In this document: piece by piece, positions 31,429 to 42,222 of the stretch
How the letters are laid out: each line of letters starts with the position of its first letter
Numbering within the stretch: position 1 is the stretch's first letter
NCBI RefSeq assembly: GCF_014522205.1
Contig: NZ_CP046884.1
Location: 372,001 to 436,000, forward strand
DNA: 64,000 bases
Source of the DNA: Corynebacterium poyangense
GTDB lineage: Bacteria; Actinomycetota; Actinomycetes; Mycobacteriales; Mycobacteriaceae
Direction: 5' to 3'
Made by a program: the position numbers and the translations under genes
The notes under the pieces: model-generated
Told to the model about the DNA's origin: nothing
The model's database searches: none
Seen by the model: the letters and a program-made list of their open reading frames with translations, nothing else

Positions 31429-32340
31429 ATGGTTTCACGATCCTCTCTGCGCCTCGGAACCCGCGGAAGCAACCTAGCCCGTACCCAAACGGGGCATGTG
31501 GCCGCTGCGCTGGAAGCAGCTGGTTGTTCGGCCGAACTCACCATCATCACCACCGCTGGCGATGTCAATATGGCCCCGGTAGAAAGAATCGGTGTTGGCG
31601 TTTTCACTCAAGCCCTGCGTGAGGCGCTCCACGACGGGGAATGTGACATCGCGGTGCATTCCTTCAAAGATCTTCCATCAGCCCCCGATCCGCGTTTTCG
31701 GCTTGTCGTTCCGCACCGTGTGGACCCGAGGGAAGCCCTCATCGCTCGAGATGGTTTAACCCTGGAGCAATTGCCGCAGGGGGCGAAAGTAGGAACGAGC
31801 GCGCCTCGGCGGATTTCGCAACTGAAAGCCCTTCGCCCAGATCTTGATATTCGACCACTCCGGGGCAATATCGATACCCGGATGGGCAAAGTCCACAGCG
31901 GTGAACTCGACGCTGTGGTGCTTGCTTTTGCCGGGTTAAGTCGAGTTAACCTGGGCGATCAAGCAACTGAAGTCTTTAGCCCCCACGTGTTTCTTCCAGC
32001 TCCTGCTCAGGGCGCTCTGGCTCTGGAATGCCGGGCAGATGATGACGCCGCCCACTCGGCCTTGCTCCAACTTAGCGACCCGGAGGCAACGGCATGTACC
32101 ACGGCGGAACGCGCATTCTTAGCGCATCTGGAGGCCGGCTGTACTGCGCCGGTGGCGGCCTATGCCACCGCGGATCAGGGGAATATCACCTTATGCGGAG
32201 GGGTTTTTGGGCTCGACGGAACCAAGCGCCTAGTTAGCAGCCGCACCGCACCCTCTCACAGCGCCGAGGACATGGGGCGGGAACTCGCTGCGGAACTCCT
32301 AGCCCAAGGAGCGGGGGAAATTCTAGGAAGTGACCGTTAA
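31429..32340 (+). CDS. hemC: Porphobilinogen deaminase (hydroxymethylbilane synthase)
   Basis: A 303-residue enzyme that polymerises four porphobilinogens. [16 protein letters not shown] at the N-terminus, HSFKDLP with the conserved Asp, [20 protein letters not shown], and the cofactor Cys in [12 protein letters not shown] near residue 242 for the dipyrromethane attachment are all present. Its TAA overlaps the next gene's ATG by one base, showing coupled translation with the small downstream gene. Confidence 0.96.
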
Positions 32341-32708
32341 TGGCTAACCTGCACATTACTGAACACGCTTGCACGGTGGAACTCAATTGGTGGGAGAAGC
32401 TCGCGGCACGTCGTTCCGACCTCACCATCCCGGTCCGGGTAGTGCGAAATGTGGAGCTTCTTCCCGATGTATCCGATGTGGTCGCAGAGTTGCGGAGAAG
32501 CCCCGGAATCAGAGTGTCAGGGCTCACAAGTATTGGAACTTTTTGGGCAGAAGATGGAAGTCGAAAAAAGACTTTTGCGGTCTGTCATGGGCGACGTGGC
32601 GGATTGCTATTAGCGCTGGAAGGCGCCACTTTTGATCAGATAGTTCTGTCCACAGATAGTGCTCGGCACTACTCGGCGCAACTGGCCCAATATATGGTGG
32701 ACAATTAA
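32340..32708 (+). CDS. Small protein of unknown function between hemC and hemD
   Basis: A 122-residue soluble protein with no Cys cluster or membrane segment. It starts [20 protein letters not shown] and has a central block RVSGLTSIGTFWAEDG followed by GLLLALEGATFDQIVLSTD, an alternating strand pattern ending in a helix that suggests a PH-like beta barrel. I recall similar proteins of about this size in actinobacteria but no known function. Its ATG overlaps the hemC stop, so it is translated with the heme enzymes. Whether it acts in heme synthesis is unknown. Confidence 0.75.
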   Translation: MANLHITEHACTVELNWWEKLAARRSDLTIPVRVVRNVELLPDVSDVVAELRRSPGIRVSGLTSIGTFWAEDGSRKKTFAVCHGRRGGLLLALEGATFDQIVLSTDSARHYSAQLAQYMVDN

Positions 32709-32854: not shown

Positions 32855-34558
32855 ATGAGCAAGGACCCCCAGGTCGTTAGCGACCACGAGCCCGGATCTC
32901 AACCGGGCAAGGTCATCTTCGTCGGTGCCGGCCCCGGTAATCCCGACATGTTGACTGTGCGTGCCCGCGAAGTTCTGGCGAGCACTGCCCACGCCCTTTG
33001 TGACGCTGATGTACACCCCGCTATCCGGGAAATCGTCGGCTCGGCATTGCCTGTACCCCCGGAAAAGCTTGCGGCTGCTGAACAAGAATATGAACAGCTG
33101 TGTGCGGAGGCGAAGGCCAATGGTGCTCGCCGGAAGCCGCAGCGTCCAGCGCCGCCGACAGCTGCGGAAATCAGTGAAGTGGAGCCCGGCACCAAACCAG
33201 AACAGATCCTCCGGGATTTAGCGTCCTTGGTGGCTGCAGGCGAAGACGTCATTCGATTAGTAACTGGAAACCCTTTGAATCGGGAACCAGCGCTGGCAGA
33301 AATTGCCGCCGCTGGAGATGCAGGTCTCGAATTCCAGGTAGTGCCCGGAATGTCCTTGCCGGGGACCGTACCTTCTTTCGCTGGCATTGCTTTAGGTTCC
33401 ACCTACACCGAAACCAATATCACCGAACCAGGCGTGGATTGGGAGCAGCTTGCTGCCGCCCCACAACCACTAGTGCTAGAAGCAAAAGCAGAGCACTTGA
33501 CTGTTATTGCGGGCAAACTGTCGGGTGCAGGAATGCAGGCTGACACCCCAGTGACAGTGACCGTTAATGGCACTACCCGCTTGCAGCGCACACATGACTG
33601 CACCCTAGGAACTCTCGGGAAGCTCGATGCCGAATTGCCCGGCACTCTCGTGGTGACCTTAGGTAAAGGAGTCGATGATCGCACCAAATACTCTTGGTGG
33701 GAAAACCGGCCCCTGTATGGTTGGCGGGTGTTGGTACCCCGAGCCAAGGAACAAGCCGGCCCCATGAGTACCCGGCTGGCTAGCCATGGGGCAATTCCGC
33801 AGGAAGTTCCGACGATCTCCGTCGAGCCTCCGCGCAATCCCACCCCCATGGAACGTGCTGTGAAAGGCATTGTTGAGGGGCGTTATCAGTGGGTGGTATT
33901 TACCTCTGTCAACGCGGTTCATGCTGTCCGTGACAAAGTTGCGGAATTTGGATTAGACGCCCGTGCTTTTGCCGGAGTGCGCTTAGCCGCAGTTGGTACG
34001 AAAACAGCCGATGCCATCCGGAAACTAGGAATTACCCCAGAACTCCTGCCCTCACGCCACCAGCAAAATGCGCACGGCTTGGTTGAGGTATTCCCGGAAT
34101 ATGTAGAGGACCTAGACCCAGTCGGTCGGGTGCTGTTGCCCCGGGCAGACATTGCCAGTGAGGTTTTAGTCGAGGGAATCCGGGACCTAGGCTGGGAAGT
34201 TGATGATGTCGTGGCCTACCGCACGGTCAGGGCTGCTCCACCCAGTGCTGATATTCGAGACATGATTAAGTCAGGCGGATTTGATGCGGTATGTTTTACC
34301 TCCTCCTCCACGGTCCGCAACCTGGTAGGGATTGCTGGTAAACCCCACCAGCGCACCATCATCGCCTGTATCGGCCCCGCCACTGCCGCCACTGCCCAAG
34401 AAGTAGGTCTTCGGGTAGACGTGGTTCCCGAAGTCGCTGACATTCCTGCCTTAGTGGATGCTTTAGCAGACCATGTGGCAGCTCTCAGAGCCGCCGGGCA
34501 ATTGCCGCCACCCCGGAAGAAGCGGCGAGTAAGGCGTCGAAACAATCCTGAGAAATAG
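32855..34558 (+). CDS. hemD: Uroporphyrinogen-III synthase fused to a degenerate SUMT/CysG-like domain
   Basis: A 567-residue two-domain protein. Residues about 18-220 resemble uroporphyrinogen-III methyltransferase (VIFVGAGPGNPDMLTVRA; VVPGMSLPGTVPSFAGIALG), but the SAM site GGDPFVFGRG is reduced to TGNPLNREPA, so methyltransferase activity is doubtful. Residues about 290-550 are the HemD cyclase (WRVLVPRAKEQAG; VVFTSVNAV; FTSSSTVRN), which closes hydroxymethylbilane to uroporphyrinogen III. The same arrangement occurs in mycobacteria. The start is taken at ATG 32855. The preceding 146 bp hold no recognised gene. The C-terminus is basic (KKRRVRRRN). Confidence 0.9.
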   Translation: MSKDPQVVSDHEPGSQPGKVIFVGAGPGNPDMLTVRAREVLASTAHALCDADVHPAIREIVGSALPVPPEKLAAAEQEYEQLCAEAKANGARRKPQRPAPPTAAEISEVEPGTKPEQILRDLASLVAAGEDVIRLVTGNPLNREPALAEIAAAGDAGLEFQVVPGMSLPGTVPSFAGIALGSTYTETNITEPGVDWEQLAAAPQPLVLEAKAEHLTVIAGKLSGAGMQADTPVTVTVNGTTRLQRTHDCTLGTLGKLDAELPGTLVVTLGKGVDDRTKYSWWENRPLYGWRVLVPRAKEQAGPMSTRLASHGAIPQEVPTISVEPPRNPTPMERAVKGIVEGRYQWVVFTSVNAVHAVRDKVAEFGLDARAFAGVRLAAVGTKTADAIRKLGITPELLPSRHQQNAHGLVEVFPEYVEDLDPVGRVLLPRADIASEVLVEGIRDLGWEVDDVVAYRTVRAAPPSADIRDMIKSGGFDAVCFTSSSTVRNLVGIAGKPHQRTIIACIGPATAATAQEVGLRVDVVPEVADIPALVDALADHVAALRAAGQLPPPRKKRRVRRRNNPEK

Positions 34559-34612
34559 GAGCCTATGATGGTGAGGCGTCGAGATACCTAAACCCCTGAA
34601 AGAAGGATTGTG

Positions 34613-35614
34613 GTGACTTATACCGATCATCTAAGAAGGCGCCCGCGACGGCTCCGCTCTACTCCCGCGATGCGAGAGATGGTGGCGGAATATAGTTTGC
34701 GTCCGGCAGATTTGATTTTGCCGGCGTTTATTGCCACGGGAATTGATGAGCCCCGGGAAATCAGCTCTATGCCGGGGGTGTATCAGCACACCACTGATTC
34801 CTTATTGGCTTTGGCGGAACAGGCATTAGAAGCCGGAGTCAAATGCATTGATCTTTTTGGTGTGCCCTTGGATGCGGACAAAGACGCCGAAGGGTCCCAA
34901 TCCTGGGATCCCAATGGGGTGCTCAACCGGGGACTGGCAGCGTTGAGAAAAGAATTCGGGGATGAATTGATCCTGATGGCGGATACGTGCCTGGATGAAT
35001 TTACCGATCATGGTCATTGCGGAGTGTTGGGGGAAAACCCCTTTGGGCGAAACATCGTCGATAATGACGCCACGTTGCCGCGCTATCAAAAAATGGCGGT
35101 AGCGCAGGCAGAAGCCGGGGCGCATATAGTTTCGCCGTCGGGGATGATGGATGGGCAAATAGCTGCTATTCGGGAAGCCTTGGATGAGGCAGGTTGGCAC
35201 GAGGTAGCCATTATGGCGTACTCGGCAAAATACGCTTCCGCGTTTTTTGGTCCCTTTAGGGACGCAGTAGGTTCTTCCCTTCAAGGCGATCGTCGAACCT
35301 ATCAACAAGATCCAGCGAACTTCCGAGAATCTCTCCTGGAAACCCAGTTAGATATTGACCAGGGGGCGGATTTCGTCATGGTCAAACCCGCCCTGCCGTA
35401 TCTTGATGTCCTTCACGCTGTAGCGCAGATGTCTCCTGTTCCGGTGGCGGCCTATCAGGTTTCCGGGGAATATGCCATGATTGCAGCAGCGGGGCAACAA
35501 GGCTGGGTGGATCGTGATGCCATCATGATGGAATCACTCATGTCTATTAAGCGCGCCGGTGCTAACCAGATCCTCACCTACTTTGCTATCGAAGCAGCTC
35601 AACGTTTAGGTTAA
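34613..35614 (+). CDS. hemB: 5-aminolevulinate dehydratase (porphobilinogen synthase)
   Basis: A protein of about 333 residues that condenses two 5-aminolevulinates. The N-terminal [16 protein letters not shown], the metal-site region [14 protein letters not shown], the catalytic Lys regions [16 protein letters not shown] and [10 protein letters not shown] are present. The metal segment has two of the three zinc cysteines and Asp in the middle position, the actinobacterial pattern as I recall it. Two adjacent GTG codons (34610, 34613) are possible starts; the second is better spaced from AGAAGGA. It continues the hem operon. Confidence 0.95.
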
Positions 35615-35637
35615 ACCGCAAGGAGAGATGACTCATC

Positions 35638-36186
35638 GTGAATCAGGGTAATGAGGCGACGCAGCGCCCAGAAGCAGTACAAGTTTTCACTCGCCTATGG
35701 GGCGCGGTGATATGTGCTGAGGTGCTGCATCAATTAATTAGCCTCATTATGGGTGTGCTGGATAGCAGCCAATTACGAGCCCAGCTTAAAAAGCAGGCCG
35801 CTGATTCCGCCTACACCATCCCTGAGCACATGTTTCCCCTCATCATCGCGCTGAGCCTGGGGATGATGCTGCTGCTGAGCTTACTCATTCTGGGCCTGTT
35901 GGGGTATTCGCTAACTCGAGTCCATTTAGCAACCAAATACGCCGCCATGGCCCACACTTTGCTGAGTTTTTTCGGGTTGTACTTCACCCTCCGAATGGTG
36001 CTGTTGTACTTCGCAAGTCCCCAAAGTTCGGTCCTGTCGGTGGGGTGGTATCTAGTTGATGGCAGCGTCCAAATCATCATTGGGGTCATGGCCGCTCTCA
36101 CTCTCTATTTTGGTCGTAAAGAAGATACCTTGCGGTGGACCGGGGAGTGGCAGGCAATGGAAAATATGCGCAAGGGCGGAAAGTAG
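35638..36186 (+). CDS. Four-helix membrane protein of the heme cluster, unknown function
   Basis: A 182-residue protein with four hydrophobic helices (about residues 20-45, 65-95, 100-125 and 132-158) and polar termini. It starts with GTG after AAGGAGAG. It lies 23 bp after hemB and 8 bp before the P-type-ATPase-like gene. C. glutamicum carries a membrane protein gene in the same place, so the pair with the ATPase-like protein seems conserved. No motif identifies a function. A structural partner of the degenerate ATPase is one possibility from position only. Confidence 0.75.
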   Translation: MNQGNEATQRPEAVQVFTRLWGAVICAEVLHQLISLIMGVLDSSQLRAQLKKQAADSAYTIPEHMFPLIIALSLGMMLLLSLLILGLLGYSLTRVHLATKYAAMAHTLLSFFGLYFTLRMVLLYFASPQSSVLSVGWYLVDGSVQIIIGVMAALTLYFGRKEDTLRWTGEWQAMENMRKGGK

Positions 36187-36194
36187 AAACCGCC

Positions 36195-38774
36195 ATGGCT
36201 GATCCCACAGGTGAGTTACATGCCGCAATTGCTGAAGCTCGGCAGGCTGCCCGCGCTTTAGGTATTAGCGATTTTGATACTCCGACCAGTCTTGATTCTG
36301 GCGAGTTTAACCCCGATGCGGTGCGGAAACATTCTTTTAGCTTTGAGCTAGAAGGGCTGAACGATGCTCCTGGGATCAGTGACATCGAATCAGATCTAGA
36401 GCGTATTCCCGGCGTGAAAGCCAGAATTGTCTTTGCCGAACATCGGGCGTGGATTACTGCCCCGGAATCTGTAGGGCCGGACCAGTTAGCTGAGATCATG
36501 GCAAAACATGGGGTCATGGCGCGGCTTACGGAAGCCTCCTTGCGTCGACGCCTAGACCACCCCCACGGACTTCGTCCCCAACCTTCACGTCGGCCCCGGT
36601 TGCGGACCCTGAGGGCACGACGTCAAGCTGAGGAAACGCGTCGACTGATAGAACGCGAAAAGCGGGCTGGGCGGTTGCGCGCTGAAGCTATCCGACATTT
36701 GCTTCAGGATCCAGAAAGCCGAGATGTTTTATACACCGCTCGAGATTTGGTGACCATACCGCGGTTAGTTTTCTCCACGATCCTTGCTATCCCGGTAATC
36801 ATTTTGCACTACGTCGTGGCTTGGCAATTTCCTGGCTGGCAATGGCTGTGTCTGGCCTTGGCCCTCCCAGTTGTGGTGTGGGGAGCATGGCCATTTCATC
36901 GCGCCATGCTTGGTGGTCTAAGGCGTGGTCTGAGTGCGCTCGACGCCTCAAGCTCGGTGGCAATCATCAGTGCGTGGCTGTGGTCGGCAGCTATGTTATT
37001 GTTCACTCCGGCCGGAGAGATCGGATGGCTCTCAAACCCTAAACTTTTTGCCTTTGACCAGCAGCTACTCATGGAAGGCGAAATCTATCTCGATGTCGCC
37101 TGCGGCATGACAGTGGTGCTACTAGCTGGGCGGCTTGCAACTCGACGCACCCGGCTGAGCCTGATGGATGACTTAGCCCAAGCCAAACCGGATCCGCAGG
37201 AGGAATACACTGTGGTGCACCGGAATCGGGCTACTGGGCGTCAGGAACCAGAAAAGATTCCGCTCCAAGAGGTCAATGTGGGTGATGACCTTATTGTTCC
37301 TGCTGGCCATATCATCCCCGTTGATGGCCGAGTGGTGGGCGGAAGCTCAACCGTACGTGCCGGCCTCATCGAAGGCCGGGGTGTGCCGCGTCGAGTGAAA
37401 GTCAATGATCACGTCTATGCGGGGTCTACGGCAGTAGATGGGGAATTGAAGGTAAGGGTTATCCGTACGGGGCATCTGACTCGTTCCGCCGTCATTCACC
37501 ATTGGGTACGTGGCGCTACCCGACGCCAAAATAGGATGGCCTGGATTTCTACCACCTCAGCGAGTTGGCTTATTCCGGCTAGCTTAATAGTTGCTGTCGC
37601 AGATTTTGCCCTGTGGTACCTGATCAGTGGAAATATCAATGCGGCCTTCACTACCGCCTTGGCTATCTTGGCGTGTGTTGGTCCAGTGTCTTTAGCCCTG
37701 TCAACCTCGCTGGCGCTGAGACACGGTATTGAGGCGGCTGCGCGTCATGGGGTGCTACTTCGAGACGGTAACACCATGCGTCAATTAGCGGAAAGTGACA
37801 TTGTCATTTTCAACCGGGTAGGCACGCTGGTAGAGCAGGAAATGTCAGTAGAAACGGTGACCGCTGACCACGGTGAGAACCCTGACTTAGTGCTGCGCAT
37901 TGCCGGGGCATTGTGCATGGAATCTGATCACCCCTCCTCCAAAGCTATTGTTCATGCTGCACGGCACTCTCGTGACCACGGTGAGGGTGGGGATGATATT
38001 CCGCATTGGATTGAGGTCAACCATGTCTCCATCACTACCGATGGCACGTTCACAGGTATGCTCACTCTTCCCACCGCAGGGGGTGCTAATGATAAACACG
38101 TGGAAGCCTCCTTATGGCGTCCACGGACGATGGCTGATTTAACAGGCCGCTTAGCTGCAGCTGCGGTATCTGGGGGTACTCCCTTTATTGTCCGGTGGAA
38201 AGGTAAGGACCGGGGCGTAATCACCCTCAATGACATTGTGAAAGATGATGCATCCAATGCCATTGAAGATCTCAGTGATCTGGGGGTAGAAACCATGATG
38301 CTATCCCGCGACACTTACCCGGTGGCGCGCCGATTTGCGGATCGGATTGGGGTAGCAAGTGTTCTTGCCGGTATTGAGCCCAGTCGCAAAGCTATGGCTG
38401 TGCGCGCCGTACACGCTCGAGGTAACCGGGTAGCAATGGTAGGGGATTCCTCAGTACGGGAATGTCTTCACGTTGCCGATGTGGGGATCTGCGTGGTCGG
38501 AAAGCAGCCTCTTGCGGACTTAATTCGCTCAAACACCAGAGGTCTCGATGTGGTGGTGCTAAGAACCGATGTGTCAGCAATCCCGCAGACCATGGCATTA
38601 GCGCGACGCACCACTCGGCTTATCGAACAAAATATTTGGTTTGCGTGGTTTTATAACGTGGTTGCTATGGTCGCTGCCATCTCCGGGATTTTGCACCCCA
38701 TGTTGGCCACCGTATTGATGATTAGTTCCTCGTTGTTCATCGAGTGGCGCTCCCGTCGTGCCCGGGTTTATTAG
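36195..38774 (+). CDS. Degenerate P1B-type ATPase-like membrane protein in the heme operon
   Basis: An 859-residue protein with the full layout of a heavy-metal P-type ATPase. An HMA-like domain (about 46-112) lacks CxxC. A basic linker, paired membrane helices, an actuator domain, core helices and phosphorylation/nucleotide domains follow. Every key motif is altered. DKTGT is NRVGT, with Asn540 (codon 37812-37814) replacing the phosphorylated Asp. TGES is IEGR (392-395), CPC is CVGP (494-497), TGD is SRD, and GDGxND is GDSSVRE (750-756). Only the HP pair (579-580) survives. The reading frame is intact. It cannot work as a normal ion pump, and a scaffold, sensor or other role is inferred. ATG 36195 is the likely start. 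Confidence 0.8.
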   Translation: MADPTGELHAAIAEARQAARALGISDFDTPTSLDSGEFNPDAVRKHSFSFELEGLNDAPGISDIESDLERIPGVKARIVFAEHRAWITAPESVGPDQLAEIMAKHGVMARLTEASLRRRLDHPHGLRPQPSRRPRLRTLRARRQAEETRRLIEREKRAGRLRAEAIRHLLQDPESRDVLYTARDLVTIPRLVFSTILAIPVIILHYVVAWQFPGWQWLCLALALPVVVWGAWPFHRAMLGGLRRGLSALDASSSVAIISAWLWSAAMLLFTPAGEIGWLSNPKLFAFDQQLLMEGEIYLDVACGMTVVLLAGRLATRRTRLSLMDDLAQAKPDPQEEYTVVHRNRATGRQEPEKIPLQEVNVGDDLIVPAGHIIPVDGRVVGGSSTVRAGLIEGRGVPRRVKVNDHVYAGSTAVDGELKVRVIRTGHLTRSAVIHHWVRGATRRQNRMAWISTTSASWLIPASLIVAVADFALWYLISGNINAAFTTALAILACVGPVSLALSTSLALRHGIEAAARHGVLLRDGNTMRQLAESDIVIFNRVGTLVEQEMSVETVTADHGENPDLVLRIAGALCMESDHPSSKAIVHAARHSRDHGEGGDDIPHWIEVNHVSITTDGTFTGMLTLPTAGGANDKHVEASLWRPRTMADLTGRLAAAAVSGGTPFIVRWKGKDRGVITLNDIVKDDASNAIEDLSDLGVETMMLSRDTYPVARRFADRIGVASVLAGIEPSRKAMAVRAVHARGNRVAMVGDSSVRECLHVADVGICVVGKQPLADLIRSNTRGLDVVVLRTDVSAIPQTMALARRTTRLIEQNIWFAWFYNVVAMVAAISGILHPMLATVLMISSSLFIEWRSRRARVY

Positions 38775-38794
38775 AGTTCTTTAAGATAGAGGAC

Positions 38795-39868
38795 ATGACT
38801 GCCCGCAGAAGGCTCCAAGATGCCCCTATTATCGATGCTGCTCGTGGCGAAACCCCCAGCCGAATGCCAGTATGGTTTATGCGCCAAGCTGGTCGTTCTC
38901 TTCCCGAATACCGCACAATTAGGGAGGGGATTAGCATGTTGGATTCTTGTTTCCGCCCGGACCTGCTTTCTGAGATCACGCTCCAACCGGTCCGACGTCA
39001 CAACGTCGATGCAGCGATCCTCTTCTCAGATATCGTGGTACCACTCAAAGCTGCAGGAATCGGGGTCGATATTGTGCCCGGCCGTGGCCCGGTCATGGAA
39101 TCTCCGGTACGTACCAAAGAAGATATTGTCTCCCTAGCGCAGCTTGACTCAGAAGTTATTGAAATTAGTGAAGGTATCACCCGCATCCTGCAGGAGCTAC
39201 GCTCAGATCAGGCGCTTATCGGGTTCGCCGGGGCACCTTTTACTCTTGCCAGTTACCTCGTCGAAGGTGGTCCCAGCAAAAACCACGAACGCACCAAGGC
39301 ATTAATGCATGCCGAGCCGGAGTTATGGCATCAGCTGATGGAAAGACTAGTCCCCAGCATCTGCGCTTTTTTGTGGACACAGATTGATGCTGGAGTAGAC
39401 GCGGTACAGCTTTTTGATTCCTGGGCTGGATTCCTGAGTGAACGGGACTACCGAGAATTTGTGCTGCCTTATTCGCGCCAGATTTTTGATGAACTTCGCT
39501 CAAGTAACATCCCCCGTATCCATTTTGGCGTCGGCACAAGCGAAATTTTGGGTGCGATGTCCGAAGCTGGCGCTGAGGTCATGGGCGTTGACTGGCGAGT
39601 CCCCTTAGACCAAGCTGCGCGTCGGATCACTGAGGCTAGCGGGCCGAAAGTACTCCAAGGAAACCTCGACCCAGCCATACTCCAGGCAGGTACGCAAGTA
39701 ATGCGCCAAGAAATAGCCCGAATTTGTGAGGAAGCTCGACGCGCCCAAGCTGAGCACACTGCGTGCGGACACATTTTCAATCTGGGGCATGGAGTTTTAC
39801 CGAATACCGCGCCCGAAGCTATCACCGAAGCGGTAGAGATTATTCATTCCGAAGGAGTCTTTCACTAA
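38795..39868 (+). CDS. hemE: Uroporphyrinogen decarboxylase
   Basis: A 357-residue enzyme that decarboxylates uroporphyrinogen III to coproporphyrinogen III. PVWFMRQAGRSLPEYR near the N-terminus with the substrate-binding Arg, GFAGAPFTLASYLVEGG, FDSWAG and HFGVGT are the family signatures. The start ATG 38795 follows AGAGGA closely and lies 20 bp after the stop of the ATPase-like gene. The stop codon overlaps the hemY ATG in TAATG, so the two are coupled. Confidence 0.96.
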   Translation: MTARRRLQDAPIIDAARGETPSRMPVWFMRQAGRSLPEYRTIREGISMLDSCFRPDLLSEITLQPVRRHNVDAAILFSDIVVPLKAAGIGVDIVPGRGPVMESPVRTKEDIVSLAQLDSEVIEISEGITRILQELRSDQALIGFAGAPFTLASYLVEGGPSKNHERTKALMHAEPELWHQLMERLVPSICAFLWTQIDAGVDAVQLFDSWAGFLSERDYREFVLPYSRQIFDELRSSNIPRIHFGVGTSEILGAMSEAGAEVMGVDWRVPLDQAARRITEASGPKVLQGNLDPAILQAGTQVMRQEIARICEEARRAQAEHTACGHIFNLGHGVLPNTAPEAITEAVEIIHSEGVFH

Positions 39869-41274
39869 TGCGTTACGCCATCATTGGTGCTGGCCTGGCG
39901 GGATTGACTGCAGCCTATGAACTGCGCTGTCAAGACCCCTCAGCCACCATTGACGTTTTTGAAGCAACCGAACGCATTGGTGGCAAGCTCTTGACCGTGC
40001 CCTTTAACTCCGGGCCGGTAGATCTTGGGGCAGAAGCCTTTTTGGCACGCAACACCTCCGCCTACCAGTTTTTTAGCGAAGAGCTTGGGTTAACTACCGT
40101 CACACCTTCTGGATTACCATCCTCGGTCTACAGCCAAGGAACCCTTCAACCCCTACCTCATGCCGGAATGATGGGAATTCCGGCGACATCTGAGCCTATC
40201 CGGGATCTGATCAGCGCCGAAAGTGCACATCGGATTGACCACGAAACTGAGGGCAGCCCAATTATGTGGCGCCGGGGGCAAGACATGTCTGTGGGGCGGT
40301 TAGTCCGCCAGCGCTATGGCGATGACGTGGTTGATCGTTTAGTATCAGCTCTCCTCGGCGGAGTGTATTCCTGCTCAGCAGATGATTTAGGGATCCGTGC
40401 CACGATTCCGCAGCTAGCTGAGATCTTTGACGACATGTGCGACGCAGACGAGCCGATATTTTTATCCACGGCGATATCTCGGCTCTTGGAGCGTCGAGCT
40501 CAAGCGGCAGGAAGCGCCCAACAAGCCGGAACCGGCCAAGGAAGTGTTTTTGCTGCTTTCCCCGGTGGCTACGCCGACGTCTATGAAACCTTGGCGGAAA
40601 AAAGCCGAGCAGCGATCTATGTGGATGCGTTCCTCACCGGGCTACGCAGAAGCGAAGGAAAATATCAACTCATCGGGGCCGGCGAAGGAAGTTATGATCG
40701 AGTGGTCATCGCTACCCCGGCTCCTACTGCAGCGTTATTATTAGGCAGCATTGCTCCTGAGGCAGCCCACCTGATCAACACCATCAAATTAGCTGGGTCC
40801 GTCGTAGTGGGAATGAAATTTGATAGTGATAGAGGCTTACCCCACAATTCCGGAATACTCGTGGCGGCAGATCAACCAGGAATCCGCGCCAAAGCCTTTA
40901 CCTTATCTTCTCGAAAATGGCCTCACTTAGCGAAACGCGGCGGTGCGGTGGTTCGAGCCAGCTTTGGCCGTTATCGGGATGAAGCCCTTGTTCGGGCAGA
41001 AGAAGATAACTTGGTGGACTATGCCTTAGATGATTTAGCGCAAATTACCGGCTTTGATGGGAGAAAAGCTGGACTTTCAGAAATCTATGTTCAGCGCTGG
41101 TTCGGTGGTATCCCGGTATTTGATGAACATATTCTGGCCACTGTTGCTGGGGTTAAAACAGCTCTTCAGGAAGTAGAAAACCTGGAAGTAACTGGGGCGT
41201 GGATGGCCGGAGTAGGAGTTCCAGCTGTGGTAGCTGACGCCCGGGCCGCAGCGGTGCGCTTGGCGCAAGGCTAA
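39868..41274 (+). CDS. hemY: Coproporphyrinogen/protoporphyrinogen oxidase (HemY type)
   Basis: A 468-residue FAD oxidase. It has the N-terminal dinucleotide fold IIGAGLAGLTAAYEL, the FAD motif ERIGGKLLT, and the end motif GVGVPAVVADARAAA. Actinobacterial HemY enzymes are known to oxidise coproporphyrinogen III to coproporphyrin III in the coproporphyrin-dependent route, so CgoX is the more likely activity. No hemH or hemQ is present in this window. It starts inside the hemE stop codon and ends at a hairpin before a convergent gene. Confidence 0.92.
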   Translation: MRYAIIGAGLAGLTAAYELRCQDPSATIDVFEATERIGGKLLTVPFNSGPVDLGAEAFLARNTSAYQFFSEELGLTTVTPSGLPSSVYSQGTLQPLPHAGMMGIPATSEPIRDLISAESAHRIDHETEGSPIMWRRGQDMSVGRLVRQRYGDDVVDRLVSALLGGVYSCSADDLGIRATIPQLAEIFDDMCDADEPIFLSTAISRLLERRAQAAGSAQQAGTGQGSVFAAFPGGYADVYETLAEKSRAAIYVDAFLTGLRRSEGKYQLIGAGEGSYDRVVIATPAPTAALLLGSIAPEAAHLINTIKLAGSVVVGMKFDSDRGLPHNSGILVAADQPGIRAKAFTLSSRKWPHLAKRGGAVVRASFGRYRDEALVRAEEDNLVDYALDDLAQITGFDGRKAGLSEIYVQRWFGGIPVFDEHILATVAGVKTALQEVENLEVTGAWMAGVGVPAVVADARAAAVRLAQG

Positions 41275-41325: not shown

Positions 41326-42162
41326 TTAGCCTCGCCGGTGACAGATCATGGCAGAAAAATCATCTTCGCCGCGGCCTGCCTTTTGTTGCTCAGATAAAGA
41401 GCGGAGGGCGGCTTCTAAAGCGGGAAGTTCATGCTTGGAGCTTTGCACCATCAAGCGGGCGTCTTTGGCAATGGCATTGGTACTGAAATCCCCGCCTTCG
41501 GTGGAGCGCTCCCCGAGGACAAAGGGAGCTTTCATGATGCTGATAAAAGCTAAACCAGTTGAATCCAACATGGTTAAGATCTCAGAGTCTGTGAGATGAA
41601 AACTGCTGCCTAAGTCCAAAGCTTCGCGCAAACCCTCGGCACTAATGGCTAAGGCCAGATTCGCTAAGAGCTTAGCGGCCGCGGCCTTAGCTGCAGAATC
41701 TACTCCCTTGAGTCGTTGAGGATCAGCCCACGGGGATACGATCTCCAGCACTTGGTTGCGTCGAGCCGGATCGGAGGTGCCTACGTAGACCCCAAGCATT
41801 CCTTTGCGGGCTGGGCCTAAGGTTCCAACTACTGGGGCGTGAACATAGGAATCTACTGCAGCAGCAAATTCTTCAGCATCAGCGGGAGAAACGGTGGTCG
41901 TGTCGACCCAGGTGACTCCGGCGGGAATGAGCTGGGGAGAAATAATGACGTCACGGACTGTATCGGGGCCAAAAAGTGAAGAGATGATGATAGTAGCTTC
42001 GGCGACGGCGGCTTGGGGAGAGTCCGCTGCTTGAGCCCCTAGATCGGTGAGCGTGCGGGTGCGTGACGGGGTGCGGTTCCACACGGTGACTTCATGGTTG
42101 GGAAGAAGGTGCCGGGCGAGCTCAGTTCCCATCCGGCCGGTTCCAAGAAAAGCGATTTTCAT
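41326..42162 (-). CDS. NAD(P)-dependent beta-hydroxyacid dehydrogenase-like oxidoreductase
   Basis: A 278-residue protein with the Rossmann motif AFLGTGRMG at the N-terminus, VWNRTPSRT after the second strand (suggesting NADP), and a C-terminal helical domain with a Lys/Asn helix (AAAAKLLANLALAISAEGL), as in 3-hydroxyisobutyrate dehydrogenases and imine reductases. The substrate is unknown. ATG 42162 gives the family N-terminus; an in-frame start lies at 42192. It interrupts the otherwise collinear hem block between hemY and hemL and is divergent from hemL. Confidence 0.82.
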   Translation of the reverse strand: MKIAFLGTGRMGTELARHLLPNHEVTVWNRTPSRTRTLTDLGAQAADSPQAAVAEATIIISSLFGPDTVRDVIISPQLIPAGVTWVDTTTVSPADAEEFAAAVDSYVHAPVVGTLGPARKGMLGVYVGTSDPARRNQVLEIVSPWADPQRLKGVDSAAKAAAAKLLANLALAISAEGLREALDLGSSFHLTDSEILTMLDSTGLAFISIMKAPFVLGERSTEGGDFSTNAIAKDARLMVQSSKHELPALEAALRSLSEQQKAGRGEDDFSAMICHRRG

Positions 42163-42222
42163 GGACCCTACTGTGCCACAACTCCGAGACATCCGGGATG
42201 AGGTGAGCAGAAGTTGATCATT

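Follow-up and report, generated by a model that had tools for sequence, protein, structure and literature searches.

A selectively maintained P1B-type ATPase relative lacking the phosphorylated aspartate in the heme gene cluster of Corynebacterium

P-type ATPases are defined by a phosphorylated aspartate, and we know of no natural, selectively maintained family among them that lacks it. The motif names and residue roles used below are those we take to hold for CopA, the copper efflux ATPase of type P1B-1, whose structure (3rfu) is the best solved relative of the protein described here (174.7 bits, best stretch residues 193-841). Replacement of the aspartate with asparagine gives an engineered inactive mutant, as in ATP13A1 D530N and ATP13A2 D508N (PMC5837089). 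Among the membrane proteins of heme operons, HemX regulates the level of glutamyl-tRNA reductase in Bacillus and Staphylococcus (PMC10991733). Closest in genomic position are the Cu-type ATPases encoded downstream of hemB in some mycobacteria, of which our literature search found no treatment. The same search found no description of the corynebacterial protein; in it hemE was partly read as heme, and presumed C. glutamicum locus tags of the cg0514 type matched human CpG probe names.

We analysed a 64,000-nucleotide stretch of the Corynebacterium poyangense genome (NZ_CP046884.1, positions 372,001 to 436,000), referred to as the window. A preliminary description had read one of its genes as an intact but catalytically dead P-type ATPase, probably kept by selection for a non-pumping role. 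The motif losses, the lack of DKTGT at all 77 loci of the family and the low dN/dS ratios bear this out, and the finding proves more general than first seen, extending over most of the genus as sampled. The coordinates are collected in Table 1.

Table 1. Location of the ATPase-related gene, its neighbors and its altered motifs in the window.
Feature	Position	Strand	Basis or remark
Pseudo-P1B-type ATPase gene, 859 aa	36195..38774	+	ORF, profile matches, motif alignment, dN/dS
hemB, porphobilinogen synthase	34610..35614	+	Curated NCBIfam cut-off passed
Four-helix membrane protein gene	35638..36186	+	Ends 8 nt upstream of the ATPase start; a neighbor, not an obligate partner
hemE, uroporphyrinogen decarboxylase	38795..39868	+	ATG 20 nt past the ATPase stop; NCBIfam cut-off passed
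Degenerate HMA-like domain, residues 40-118, no CxxC	36312..36548	+	Aligns full length with HMA domains of active relatives
C303, family-specific Cys in a predicted membrane segment	37101..37103	+	120/121 proteins; Ala in 81% of 72 active relatives
Former TGE(S) loop, residues 393-395, hypervariable	37371..37379	+	Alignment
Former CPC metal site, residues 496-498, reads GPV; cysteines gone, Pro497 invariant	37680..37688	+	Alignment
Former phosphorylation site, DKTGT to NRVGT; N540 and R541 invariant	37812..37826	+	Alignment
Former TGD, now SRD (704-706); R705 and D706 invariant	38304..38312	+	Alignment
K732, P-domain lysine, invariant	38388..38390	+	Alignment
Former GDGxND, now GD-SSV (750-754); Asn and second Asp gone	38442..38456	+	Alignment

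The gene is a single uninterrupted frame with no stops or frameshifts, and the gene order in the window is hemA-hemC-orf-hemD-hemB-4TM-ATPase-hemE-hemY, with the four-helix gene given as 4TM. The products of hemA, hemC, hemB, hemE, hemY and hemL pass the curated NCBIfam cut-offs; hemD encodes a two-domain protein whose NCBIfam matches fall below them. Downstream lie a thioredoxin-like gene, matching the ResA/TlpA models of NCBIfam below cut-off, and two further genes that we read as ccsA/resB-type and that have no NCBIfam matches. Because the intergenic spacing is short, the ATPase gene and hemE are likely co-transcribed. A consensus scan of positions 34500-40000 found no plus-strand promoter-like site, and terminator-like sites there numbered 7 versus 5.8 in shuffles, one of those on the plus strand (38746-38762) falling at the extreme end of the ATPase gene. 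A hemE or hemL start could be projected at 68 of the 77 loci, at -63 to +531 nt relative to the stop codon of the ATPase gene, with a median of 4.5; the projection found no such start at the remaining 9. The location between hemB and hemE given in the preliminary description holds for the window, but another branch of the genus has it between hemB and hemL.

Judged from its sequence, the protein belongs by descent to the P-type ATPase superfamily, and within it to the P1B type. It passes the cut-offs of Pfam E1-E2_ATPase (106.6 bits versus 28.1), Pfam Hydrolase (HAD; 49.3 versus 26.4) and TIGR01494 (120.2 versus 62.3). It has the same domain order as CopA (HMA-like, membrane, A, P, N, membrane), and shares with it the Pro of CPC, the YN pair, the P-domain Lys and the N-domain SxH. 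Unlike CopA, it has lost the phosphorylated Asp, TGE, the CPC cysteines, the Asn and second Asp of GDGxND, the N-domain Glu and GxG and the CxxC of the HMA domain, and its family carries new invariant residues. The marks of an active P1B-type ATPase are thus missing: the Asp of DKTGT, TGE(S), CPC/SPC and GDGxND are absent, and the score against NCBIfam ATPase-IB_hvy (TIGR01525; 279.5 bits) lies below the cut-off of 346.25. Those of a pseudoenzyme are found, namely retained domains (the fold being judged from sequence alone), lost catalytic residues and purifying selection.

The motifs were located by alignment to active P1B ATPases and 3rfu, and were followed through 121 proteins, made up of the window protein and the top 120 of the 772 matches listed; proteins of C. 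callunae and C. deserti are among those listed. The phosphorylated Asp has become Asn540, as the preliminary description had read it: N540 and R541 are present in 121/121 proteins and DKTGT in 0/121. A pattern search for the Asn missed two of the 121 and matched elsewhere in a third, and all three have it once aligned. Most of the other losses that had been described stand as well. The TGES loop is unrecognisable, with TGE at its place in 0/121 proteins and a TGE string elsewhere in 33/121; TGD aligns with SRD; and GDGxND occurs in 0/121 proteins, the Asp of GDG being retained in 55/61 aligned members. The HMA-like domain reads LNDAPG in place of the GMTCASC of active relatives, a CxxC within the first 150 residues occurs in 0/121 proteins, and no Pfam HMA match was found in the window protein (at E<=1) or in 10 other family members. 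At the M4 metal site the loss holds (a CPC/SPC-type site in 0/121 proteins), but the earlier reading of CVGP was one residue off and the place reads G-P-V. The N-domain Glu and Gly-x-Gly are lost and H579 is the only one retained of the four nucleotide positions checked, which argues against ordinary ATP binding. Residues aligned to what is presumably the metal-entry site are also lost (206 Met, 453 Asp); the absence of these and of the CPC ligands argues against copper as the present ligand. One family member (L151, genome G048) has a His-rich insert at the former TGES loop of the A-domain, possibly a metal-binding addition.

The family is spread through most of the genus. Of 91 Corynebacterium genomes, the window's own counted, 72 carry at the heme locus an orthologue 42-100% identical to the window protein, and the remaining 19 contain only ordinary ATPase relatives. 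With five further loci, from four named species and one metagenome-assembled genome, the set comprises 77 loci, or about 76 distinct ones as L003 is apparently the same record as L125. At all 77, the phosphorylated Asp and the Lys after it are replaced with Asn and Arg; the search that gave the five further loci also yielded 75 others, which have DKTGT in 75/75 and CPC in 74/75. Among the 72 gene-bearing genomes, 69 show it as one long match. The exceptions are a truncated copy in G078, a 77% complete genome, a match in two pieces in G048 and a partial match in G017, the latter two within an open frame. The preliminary description had named DKTGT-bearing homologues at the locus and frameshifts in relatives as signs of decay or error; the former were absent from the genus sample (0/77 loci, 0/121 proteins), and the only irregular matches were the three just given. 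By match length alone, six further Corynebacterium genomes outside the 91 have the gene and one (G204) does not. Searches beyond the genus gave no member of the dead family. In 140 genomes of other genera the highest score was 302 bits, compared to at least 444 for the matched members, and in 60 genomes of other families it was 290 bits. Public names among the 121 proteins include copper-exporting P-type ATPase, heavy metal translocating P-type ATPase and HAD family hydrolase. As these names are often those of copper or heavy-metal P-type ATPases, the annotation misleads.

The gene is under purifying selection, as had been proposed. Its dN/dS ratio is 0.03-0.18 in 22 close pairs, far below 1 and close to the values for hemB (0.02-0.19 in 18 of those pairs) and hemE (0.05-0.35 in 11 pairs); the four-helix protein is looser (0.12-0.62 in 13 pairs). 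The frames were read from stop to stop, which may inflate these values, those of short genes most. When 18 pairs were pooled, every ATPase domain gave 0.05-0.17, the lowest values being those of M3/M4 (0.054), the N-domain and the second half of the P-domain. From sequence, the catalytically dead and selected state of the family is nearly certain, and we infer that the protein very probably does a different, non-pumping job.

Conservation at the former catalytic positions, a comparison the preliminary description had suggested, provided insights into what is being kept. In an alignment of 61 of the 121 proteins, picked for spread (mean column identity 44%), the phosphorylation pocket shows no variation at 5 of its 10 positions (hypergeometric P 0.0008, with 76 of all 859 positions invariant), and 0 of 8 positions are invariant in the set of TGE, the CPC cysteines and the N-domain E/G/G; both sets were named after conservation had been seen, so the P value is a guide only. 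The five pocket residues N540, R541, R705, D706 and K732 are invariant in 121/121 proteins. N540, R541 and R705 are found at those places in 0/72 active relatives, and D706 and K732 are residues of the active pumps. Pro497 and H579 are invariant in the 61 members, as are P233-A237 (PFHRA) and R244. Between 76 family rows and 72 active rows, 38 positions are at least 95% conserved in the former and at most 10% in the latter, including C303, N540, R541, R705 and Y708; 4 of the 38 fall where the majority of active rows are gapped, and the comparison leaves out the truncated L150 from the family and L033, L076 and L079 from the active set. Fixation of such family-specific positions would not be expected from a constraint on the fold only. 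The most informative observation is this selectivity of the loss. The TGES loop, both CPC cysteines, the GxG of the N-domain and the CxxC have disappeared and drift, and the pocket is rebuilt and fixed.

The position of the gene points to its ancestry. At 19 of the 75 active loci the ATPase also lies downstream of hemB, and all but a few of these are labelled mycobacteria or Mycobacteriaceae (e.g. L008, L017, L018 and L021). These 19 ATPases are on the same strand as hemB, mostly behind predicted small membrane proteins, and are 29-33% identical to the window protein. The family sample adds at least four more such loci (L218-L221; genomes G159, G197, G208, G225), with the ATPase 2.6-2.9 kb from hemB. 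Unlike the window family, 22 of these 23 active heme-locus ATPases retain DKTGT, TGE, CPC and GDGxND; in the other (L079), which ends at a contig end, CPC and GDGxND are absent. hemL follows within the fetched stretch in 10/23. An ATPase after hemB was found in 0/20 stretches from other families of the order, two of which end early at contig ends. In the tree, a long branch with a support of 100 sets the 37 dead rows apart from the others. A tree constrained to join the dead clade to the heme-locus ATPases is not rejected (p-AU 0.36), and this grouping is that of the best tree when two long rows are left out, with a support of only 63. Two other placements of the clade are also not rejected at 0.05, one beside the Cu ATPase of the same genome (p-AU 0.31) and one beside the CopA-like ATPases of corynebacteria (p-AU 0.059). 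Descent from an active heme-locus Cu-type pump is likely from position and compatible with the tree, and copper was probably what that ancestor pumped.

The 19 Corynebacterium genomes without the gene have no ATPase after hemB. Their hemE or hemL remains, and 18 of the 19 keep the four-helix gene, with a gap of a few hundred to about 1450 bases between it and hemE or hemL. A HemB tree covering 70 genomes (21 of the 91 loci contain too little hemB) requires about 6 changes of presence, at least 2 of them by well-supported branches, and most absences fall in one clade of 13. As the heme genes persist in its absence, the ATPase gene is dispensable, and a role in regulation or under particular conditions is more plausible than a core one in heme synthesis. 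The four-helix protein had been suggested as a complex partner. Its survival in 18 of 19 ATPase-less genomes speaks against this, and an obligate pairing was rejected. The four-helix protein evolves fast: a search restricted to sequences with shared short words gave 2 matches at E<=0.001, the protein itself included. A match to it nevertheless keeps its place after hemB across much of the genus. Presence of the ATPase gene shows no association with heme uptake by the HtaA family: among 70 of the 91 genomes, all 19 included, HtaA is present in 8/19 without the ATPase and 26/51 with it, and the window's own genome has no HtaA match.

We propose, with a probability of roughly 0.45, that the protein is a pseudoenzyme derived from a Cu+-class P1B ATPase and acts as a ligand-binding membrane regulator or docking protein for heme supply. 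We base this on the pocket, which is retained and remodelled, on the loss of energy coupling and on the location of the gene. A P1B-type (Cu+-class) ATPase in the heme cluster would have lost phosphorylation, dephosphorylation and metal transport in the Corynebacterium ancestor or before, and would have been kept as a non-pumping membrane protein. Its old phosphorylation pocket would have become a fixed basic pocket (N540, R541, R705, D706, K732), which may bind an anionic ligand such as a nucleotide, phosphate or a porphyrin precursor without hydrolysis. Ligand binding would set the arrangement of the domains, which a partner may read. Since the gene sits among heme genes, its product would most likely control or dock heme supply. 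This would make the protein a functional analogue of HemX, which is likewise a non-enzymatic membrane protein coded in heme operons (hemAXCDBL). HemX itself is CcsA-like and is not known to be related to the window protein. A family without the phosphorylated Asp that spans most of a genus and sits among genes of a defined pathway is a candidate regulator of corynebacterial heme synthesis, and makes other uses of the P-type fold testable in non-pathogens that can be cultured. In C. glutamicum, copper excess raises hemL and the neighboring thioredoxin and ccsA genes (PMC3140484), which ties copper to the cluster. A bolder version of our proposal is that an ATP-driven metal pump has turned into a ligand-gated membrane receptor, with the pocket reporting a heme-pathway or energy metabolite and controlling heme supply. 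We regard this version as doubtful; if true, it would give the P-type ATPase fold a type of function that is new to it.

It is quite possible, though somewhat less likely, that the protein is instead a purely structural membrane scaffold or assembly factor, serving the heme enzymes or the downstream cytochrome-assembly-like genes. There would be no ligand switch, and the pocket would be a network that locks the fold. The location among heme genes, with the thioredoxin-like and ccsA/resB-type genes further downstream, is consistent with this, as are the copper response of those genes in C. glutamicum, the low dN/dS of M3/M4, which places the membrane segments among the most constrained, and the invariant PFHRA and R244. 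However, specific catalytic swaps (Gly to R705, Lys to R541) are fixed genus-wide, and the N- and P-domains are constrained as much as the membrane part.

A regulatory subunit that pairs with the active Cu-ATPase paralogue of the same cell and tunes it is improbable. Such a paralogue is encoded in the same genome, with DKTGT, CPC, GDGIND and CxxC (the pattern TGE[SAP] is unmatched in it), but the gene is unlinked to it and sits with the heme genes, and the residues aligned to the metal-entry site are lost. Slightly more improbable still is continued transport, either passive or by a cycle independent of aspartyl phosphate: the membrane segments, Y820, N821 and P497 are retained, but the phosphorylated Asp, the TGE loop, the Asn and second Asp of GDGxND, the CPC cysteines and the metal-entry residues are gone. 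Recent decay or a local sequence error is ruled out for practical purposes, as Asn is found in 77/77 loci and 121/121 proteins with dN/dS of 0.03-0.18 in 22 pairs, and no point supports it, the sole truncated copy being that of the incomplete genome G078.

Two other features of the cluster were noted. A 122-residue frame at 32340-32708 lies between hemC and hemD, with a match at the same place in L143 alone among the loci searched. An opposite-strand gene (41326-42192, minus strand) splits the heme cluster between hemY and hemL. Its product, read by eye, resembles an NAD-dependent beta-hydroxyacid dehydrogenase, and the gene is found on the same strand and at the same place in several other genomes.
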